DNA from: Pseudomonadota bacterium
Lineage (GTDB): Bacteria > Campylobacterota > Campylobacteria > Campylobacterales > Campylobacteraceae
Reading direction: 5' to 3'
NCBI GenBank assembly: GCA_002746565.1
Contig: PDPI01000022.1
Coordinates: forward strand, 58,508 to 122,507
Length of the DNA: 64,000 bases
Part shown: one piece after another, positions 16,719 through 62,811 of the stretch
Position numbering within the stretch: position 1 is the first letter of the stretch
Layout: every line of letters starts with the position of its first letter
Made by a program: the position numbers and the translations under genes
Notes under the pieces: generated by a model
What the model was told of the DNA's origin: nothing
What the model saw: only the letters and a program-made list of their open reading frames with translations
Database searches by the model: none

Positions 16719-16787
16719 GTTTTCTCCTAGTAAAGTTTGTGTAAGTGTATCAAATATGTACTAAAAAAAAGGTAAAAGCTGATTTAT

Positions 16788-16901
16788 GTACCAACTAAAT
16801 TTACATTTAGTCGGTGCTGAGAACGGAAAGCTGAAAACTGATAACTAGTAAGGCAAGCATTTTTCCAAAATGCTATTTATTTTTATATTATTTGATTAGT
16901 G
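16788..16901 (+). repeat. Dispersed intergenic repeat, copy A
   Basis: Shares core GATAACTAGTAAGGCAAGCATTTTTCCAAAATGC and terminal ACTAAAT...ATTTGATTAGTG with copies at 51559-51680 (inverted) and 62624-62717. Confidence 0.85.
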
Positions 16902-16922
16902 TCTTTGTTTGAAAAACTATTT

Positions 16923-50681: not shown

Positions 50682-51565
50682 AAAATACTTATTTGCTAGG
50701 AATTTCTTGTGCCCTCTTGGCATCTTTGATCTGGTCTAGCTCTTTTATAGCCCTAAAAATAGCCATTGCTAGCATGAATCCCATGAGTATAGTTTTTTTC
50801 AGAATGCTTTTAGCGAGTTTAATGTTTGCATTCTTTTACAAGCGATTTAAGGGCTTGCATGTAAATAAGGAAGATCTAAAATGGATAATCTTCATGGTCG
50901 TTTGCGAACCAGGTTTGTATTTTGTTTTTGAGATAAGTGCTTTGGAATTTACTTCCGCATCCCAAGCTGGGGTCATAGTCTCAACCATGCCACTCCTAAC
51001 CGCCATTGGGGCGGGGATATTTTTAAAAGAAGAGGTTACAAAACAGCTTATTTTTGGCTCCCTTTTGGCGATGGCTGGGGCGATTTGGCTTAGTCTTAGT
51101 GCTAGTGCAAACGATTACGCTCCAAATCCACTTTTAGGAAATACTCTTGAAGCCCTAGCTATGGTTTGTGCGGCGGGTTATACCTTGAGTTTAAAGCATC
51201 TTTCTAAGAAATTTTCAGCCCTTTTTCTAACGGCAGTTCAGGCTTTTGGTGGAGCTTTATTTTTCTTGCCCTTGAGCCTTTGGGAGTTTGGAGTTAGGGG
51301 TTTTAGCGTTGGATACGATAGCTTTTTGGCGGTTTTATATCTTGGTATAGTTGTAACCATGGGAGGATATGGACTTTTTAATTATGCCCTAACTCTTGCC
51401 CCTGCGTCGAAAATTTCAAATGTGATAAATCTTATTCCTGCTTTTACGATTATTTTGGCGTATTTTATACTAGATGATGTTCTCAATCAAACCCAAATAT
51501 TTGCCGCTGGGGTTATATTTTTAGGGGTTTTTATATCCCAAAGCATAAAACTAAAAAGGCACTGA
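50678..51565 (+). CDS. DMT-superfamily (EamA) transporter
   Basis: Ten TM; LLASLIWSSSFIALKIAIASMNPMSIVFFRMLLASL. Confidence 0.92.
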   Translation: MKNTYLLGISCALLASLIWSSSFIALKIAIASMNPMSIVFFRMLLASLMFAFFYKRFKGLHVNKEDLKWIIFMVVCEPGLYFVFEISALEFTSASQAGVIVSTMPLLTAIGAGIFLKEEVTKQLIFGSLLAMAGAIWLSLSASANDYAPNPLLGNTLEALAMVCAAGYTLSLKHLSKKFSALFLTAVQAFGGALFFLPLSLWEFGVRGFSVGYDSFLAVLYLGIVVTMGGYGLFNYALTLAPASKISNVINLIPAFTIILAYFILDDVLNQTQIFAAGVIFLGVFISQSIKLKRH

Positions 51566-51680
51566 CTAAATAACATAAAAGTAAAAGGCATTTTGTAAAA
51601 ATGCTTACTTTACTAGTTATCTGTTTTCTGTAATCTGCAATCCGTTTTCGGCACTGACTAAATCCCTATTTAGTCAGTGC
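51559..51680 (-). repeat. Dispersed intergenic repeat, copy B (most complete; 13-bp terminal inverted repeats)
   Basis: GCACTGACTAAAT (51559-51571) ... GCACTGACTAAAT-ccct-ATTTAGTCAGTGC (51651-51680); inverted core GCATTTTGTAAAAATGCTTACTTTACTAGTTATCTG. Confidence 0.9.
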
Positions 51681-51756
51681 TAGCTGGCACCATTTGCAAA
51701 GAAAACCTAAAAATATGGTATAATTCGAAAAAATTAATATTTCAAAAGGATGTAAA

Positions 51757-62503: not shown

Positions 62504-62623
62504 ACTTTCTCCTTATGGATTTTTAGCCTTACTTGATCTAAGTTAGGCAAGGATTTGTCTTTGCATCTTAAAGCAAAGAACCCGTGATTCTACCTAAAAA
62601 CTACTTAAAGATAGTTTACTTTT

Positions 62624-62717
62624 TTCGGAAAACGGATTGCGGATTACGGAAAACAGATAACTAGTAAGGTAAGCATTTTTACAAAATGCCATTTGTTTTA
62701 ATGTTATTTAGTTAGTG
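62624..62717 (+). repeat. Dispersed intergenic repeat, copy C (left terminal repeat missing)
   Basis: TCGGAAAACGGATTGCGGATTACGGAAAACAGATAACTAGTAAGGTAAGCATTTTTACAAAATGCC...TTATTTAGTTAGTG. Confidence 0.88.
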
Positions 62718-62811
62718 TTGTTGCTACTTGGGTGGGAAAATTTAATGATGTTTTTGATATAATCTGACACGATGGTGTAGCAAATGGTAGTTTTTAAAAA
62801 GGGAAAAAATA

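Follow-up and report, generated by a model that had tools for sequence, protein, structure and literature searches.

A short, high-copy intergenic repeat with IS1-type ends and a seven-base array in a Campylobacterota genome

The window analyzed here, a 64-kb stretch of DNA (G000:C30:58508-122507), contains three copies of a short repeat, designated A, B, and C. The original prediction of a repeat family was borne out: the core GATAACTAGTAARGYAAGCATTTT matches exactly at 16840-16863 (+), 51598-51621 (-), and 62656-62679 (+), with a chance expectation of 0 in 100 shuffles. A covariance model (R1) of 20 genome copies, among them A and B from the window but not C, gave exactly three strong window matches, at 51558-51681 (-), 16787-16903 (+), and 62596-62719 (+). 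The features of the three copies are as follows, in window coordinates.

16787..16903, + strand: copy A, flanked by two minus-strand genes, ydcH-like and argJ
16788-16800 and 16805-16817, + strand: copy A left palindrome arms
about 16818-16845, + strand: copy A heptamer array
16857-16873, + strand: copy A hairpin GCATTTT-TCC-AAAATGC
16891-16903, + strand: copy A right end, degraded
51558..51681, - strand: copy B, the best preserved of the window
51558-51571, - strand: copy B right terminal repeat
51588-51604, - strand: copy B hairpin
about 51616-51650, - strand: copy B heptamer array
51651-51663 and 51668-51680, - strand: copy B left palindrome arms
62628..62719, + strand: copy C, without left palindrome, flanked by divergent rpsF and a plus-strand gene downstream
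about 62628-62661, + strand: copy C heptamer array
62673-62689, + strand: copy C hairpin
62706-62719, + strand: copy C right end

The three had been described as clear copies, but copy B is the only window copy with all three inverted-repeat segments intact; both ends of copy A are degraded, and in copy C the left palindrome is gone. The EamA gene takes its stop codon region from copy B (ORF end 51565). No 8-bp target duplication is recognizable at any of the three window copies.

The family extends far beyond the window. The genome searched comprises 1.14 Mb and is 58% complete; in it the covariance model gave 71 matches at E≤0.01, which correspond to about 57 distinct copies after reverse-strand echoes of the palindrome were taken out, and BLAST with copy B found about 40 places. 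The count of three thus holds for the window, but as a picture of the family it was too small. Rfam gave no match at gathering threshold, no such element appears in the open papers on Campylobacter and Campylobacterota MITEs that we searched, and this sequence fits no named family known to us, in agreement with what had been supposed. The two outcomes named beforehand as fatal to the proposal, a family limited to these copies or identity with a known RNA family, are contradicted by the copy number and by the Rfam result.

The consensus is about 124 bp long, with termini GGCACTGACTAAAT...ATTTNGTCAGTGCC, and both of these terminal inverted repeats are recognizable in 21 copies. Its left part reads GGCACTGACTAAAT-AGGG-ATTTAGTCAGTGCC-(GAAAACG GATTACG GATTACG GAAAACA GATAACT), and the heptamers are followed by AGTAAAGTAA-GCATTTT-TTC-AAAATGC-CATTTATTTTTATGTT-ATTTCGTCAGTGCC. 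The left end therefore consists of the terminal repeat and then its own inverted copy, forming a hairpin of -21 kcal/mol, and the right end carries the terminal repeat once only. In 29 of the 30 measurable copies, palindrome and core are separated by 14, 21, 28, or 35 nt; the spacer is an array of seven-base units that varies by whole units. Short (below about 300 bp), without coding capacity, and present in many copies, the repeat has the size and coding properties of a MITE. Two candidate solo 32-bp palindrome elements, at C32:4583 and C7:8852, were rejected because both are truncated MITEs in which the first heptamer is retained.

Run with stricter filters on 398 other genomes of the order, a set with no genome of the same genus, the MITE model detected nothing comparable and gave one weak match, in genome G043. 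The exact core pattern had no match in all GTDB genome contigs, a set from which the window's own genome may be omitted, or in viral contigs, and a plasmid collection also gave no match. The family is lineage-restricted.

Target-site duplications were sought by comparing flanks of 3 to 13 nt at the 21 copies with both ends recognizable. At a length of 8, flank identity was 0.54, compared with 0.31 after right flanks had been permuted across copies (z 6.3; 0 of 2000 shuffles); none of the other lengths in the 3 to 13 range was significant. Duplications matching at 7/8 or better were present at eight of the 21 copies (0.38 expected), two of them perfect, TAACTTAA and TACAAATT. A fixed-length target duplication, as in bacterial MITEs, is thus found at 8 bp. 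The remaining 13 two-ended copies, copy B among them, lack a recognizable duplication, and some copies may therefore be recombinants or old. Copies near the consensus tend to retain the duplication; the first three in a ranking by divergence all do.

The right end of the MITE led to a transposase-encoding counterpart. In G040, a genome from another family of the same order, five contigs break at a sequence resembling the MITE right end, and this IS end, GGCACTGACTAAATAAGCTAAAAATAAATGGC, read inwards, lies immediately upstream of the transposase ATG, which opens the protein MKKYKKYKRLTTYQKELIYKIVD... The end matches MITE right ends over 37-39 bp with 82-90% identity (best E 1.2e-8). With a 70-aa query assembled from two G040 contigs, transposase homologs were found in 12 genomes among 399 of the order. 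The complete genome G050 holds six identical 684-bp elements with ends GGCACTGACC...GGTCAGTGCC and six perfect, mutually different 8-bp duplications; GGCACTGACTAAAT ends bound transposase homologs in G047 and G240, and GGGACTGACTAAAT ends bound one in G110. The G047-type element is also present in the named record Nautiliales bacterium WV45_bin6. The transposase of these relatives matches PF03400 (IS1 transposase) at 25.0 bits (2.6e-5), above the cut-off of 24.1, and NF033558 at 9.5e-20, yet below the equivalog cut-off; the D, D, and E positions align among intact DDE-domain sequences of IS1-type transposases. By these profile matches and residues, the autonomous relatives with MITE-type ends encode an IS1-family transposase, and the 8-bp duplications of both the G050 elements and the MITE fall within the IS1-type length of 8-9 bp.

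IS1-family members among the Campylobacterota genomes include single- and two-ORF forms. In both the G050 element (locus L089, 1444-2127) and the Nautiliales WV45_bin6 element (L127, 1-715), the junction of two ORFs falls on an A8-A9 run and their relation is +1/-2, suggesting slippage on the A run; the usual relation for IS1 is -1. Two overlapping ORFs have been described in ISCaa4 (PMC3196728).

The original prediction proposed looking for a transposase with matching ends. It exists in the relatives, but the window's own genome yielded only a decayed IS1-type fragment, C8:91976-92122 (E 1.3e-5, 6 stops), and no intact IS1-type partner was found in the part of the genome available, 42% of it being missing. 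The same genome contains two remnants of IS1595-type transposases, both decayed and scoring under the family cut-off, at G000:C12:28373-28531 (L058) and G000:C32:8817-8930 (L059).

It is very likely that the repeat is an IS1-derived, protein-less MITE of about 124 bp with IS1-family ends. The earlier proposal of a non-autonomous mobile element is upheld by the terminal inverted repeats, the 8-bp duplications, and the approximately 57 intergenic copies, and is backed further by an autonomous IS1-type partner family with common ends. We infer from the ends shared with the IS1-type elements of relatives that an IS1-type transposase would have acted in trans, cutting and joining at GGCACTGAC...GTCAGTGCC and inserting the element into AT-rich intergenic DNA with 8 bp duplicated; the ends and the duplications are observed directly. 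The right end would derive from the transposase-proximal end of a G040-like element, and at the left end the inverted copy comes directly after the terminal repeat, giving a hairpin. The 7-nt tandem array between the ends would gain and lose whole units beside the GCATTTT/AAAATGC hairpin. In the part of the genome that has been sequenced, the resident transposase has apparently decayed or been lost, and most copies would therefore be old; the MITE has probably ceased to be mobilized by an enzyme of its own genome. After insertion, both hairpins were kept as the outer right end decayed, suggesting either that the hairpins act near genes, structurally or as RNA, or that palindromes correct themselves.

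No overlap of >30 nt with any ORF of at least 70 aa occurs in 55 of the 57 copies. In 29 copies, the left and inner palindrome arms share 14 joint off-consensus changes, compared with 2.5 when arms are shuffled between copies (sd 1.5, maximum 9 in 5000); for the left arm and the right end the corresponding values are 7 and 4.2. The left palindrome is maintained by compensatory changes. In copies without duplications, the two arms of the internal stem are off consensus at 2.2% and 3.5%, neighboring segments at 11-12%, and the right end at 32%, a figure that includes truncated ends. The internal hairpin is 3-5 times as conserved as its surroundings, a ratio that may be inflated because the copies were found with a model that includes the stem. 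Across the MITE copies and relatives lacking terminal inverted repeats, this stem pairs in 99% of cells and shows 13 double changes, compared with 4.5 after shuffling, e.g., GCGTTGC/GCAACGC. The conserved hairpins suggest some constraint after insertion; the compensated stems may reflect either selection on the hairpins or palindrome correction during replication. Where the flanking genes are in tandem, the element is oriented against transcription 24 times out of 31 (p 0.003, post hoc); leaving out the two cases assigned by eye gives 22 of 29.

Relatives without IS1 ends occur in the same genome, where the MITE core lies between tRNA genes at C31:15576, 15770, and 16121, with neighbors tRNA Val/Glu, Glu/Lys, and Asp/Lys, respectively. 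In each, heptamers make up both sides of a stem longer than 30 nt, and folding energies range from -51 to -61 kcal/mol, with z-scores of -7.7 to -9.4.

1176-1318, 1400-1548, and 1721-1865 of L166 (G000:C31:14400-17500): hairpin elements of about 145 nt

The interior of the MITE resembles half of this tRNA-gene hairpin structure. Within the tRNA cluster, a 97-nt segment bearing tRNA-Asp is exactly duplicated (L166, 1000-1096 and 1619-1715).

These structures bear on an alternative, in line with the REP/BIME-like structured RNA that the original prediction had also offered: the repeat would be an intergenic RNA element, of REP/BIME type or otherwise structured, in which the hairpins are what matters, spread by a RAYT or by recombination, and the IS-like ends would be incidental. 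The two hairpins preserved with compensatory changes, the core relative between tRNA genes, and the 24 to 7 orientation bias would all suit such an element, and the MITE resembles REPs and REPINs (PMC3116915, PMC3733652) in being a high-copy intergenic palindrome. A REP-like mechanism is nonetheless not supported: the termini are DDE-transposase ends identical to those of IS1-family elements and associated with fixed 8-bp duplications. Neither feature is, to our knowledge, part of REP/RAYT biology, and the GTAG/CGTC tag of a RAYT-dispersed palindrome is absent from the MITE. We regard this explanation as improbable. Even less probable, and largely refuted, is derivation from another IS family such as IS1595 or IS6. 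Both likewise make 8-bp duplications, IS6 ends also start GGCACTG, and IS1595 domain traces are present in the window's own genome, although below cut-off and at loci without MITE-type ends; G040, with its 38-bp end match, has no PF12762 match, and in several genomes IS1-type transposase genes are flanked by MITE-type ends. IS1595 was accordingly rejected as the parent, with two weak remnants only, no matching ends at either, and no match in G040.

Compatible with an IS1-derived MITE, rather than exclusive of it, is the proposal that the former MITE was exapted as a regulatory element whose hairpins terminate or stabilize neighboring transcripts. Stem conservation in old copies, the compensated left palindrome, strictly intergenic placement, and the orientation bias are consistent with this. 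Against it, scans of the window copies gave no terminator-like site and only chance-level promoter-like matches, palindrome correction during replication could yield the same compensated changes, and gene avoidance is expected from purifying selection alone. We consider exaptation possible but doubtful.

As an IS1-derived MITE, the element shares with the IS1 family (PF03400) termini that begin GG(C/G)ACTGAC, the 8-bp duplications, and the 38-bp similarity to the G040 end, but it is non-coding, and except at the right end its interior is not IS sequence. An 8-bp duplication is also recorded for a composite transposon bounded by the IS1-family element ISAba3 (PMC6382973). Among small mobile sequences (reviewed in PMC2229807), it resembles MITEAba12, a 113-bp element with 9-bp duplications and the parent ISAba12 (PMC6382973), in size, AT-richness, lack of coding sequence, terminal inverted repeats, and a fixed target duplication, and, as for other IS-derived MITEs, mobilization in trans is suggested by common ends. 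It differs in IS family and in having a palindromic left end, a quantized 7-nt array, and a compensated hairpin. Campylobacterota thereby gain a MITE family of IS1 type whose parent group is defined and which is undescribed in the open papers searched. Any action of the hairpins on transcripts would be felt at some 57 sites of this one small genome.

STRR heptamers are familiar from cyanobacteria. Heptanucleotide arrays without element ends are known in Beggiatoaceae (TAACTGA) and other bacteria (PMC4679880), and like the array described here they consist of seven-base units, are intergenic, and change by whole units. Here, in contrast, the array lies inside a mobile element and its unit is of the GGAWWAC type rather than TAACTGA. 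A quantized seven-base array and self-maintaining palindromes carried in a mobile element tie scattered heptamer repeats to transposition.

Heptamer arrays (RGAWWAC x3) occur in nine of the 399 genomes, with 31 matches in the MITE host genome alone, and adjoin tRNA genes in G091 (L185, about 1500) and G089 (L186, about 1500). The MITE-like family of G043 (L198, L184, L179) has unrelated ends, TTGCCATTAAG...CTTAATGGCA, and the same plan, a left palindrome with a 4-nt loop directly followed by a heptamer array. Tentatively, the array and hairpin may form an independent structured module, conserved for a role at the level of RNA or chromosome structure, as might apply between tRNA genes, that unrelated MITE termini have captured more than once. 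The termini so involved might be IS1-type here and GCCATTAAG... in G043, around the same palindrome and heptamer plan, a reading that we consider possible but doubtful. The complete genome G013, from the window genome's family, contains three identical loci (L181, L195, L203) with a GGAATACAGATTAC-type heptamer array.
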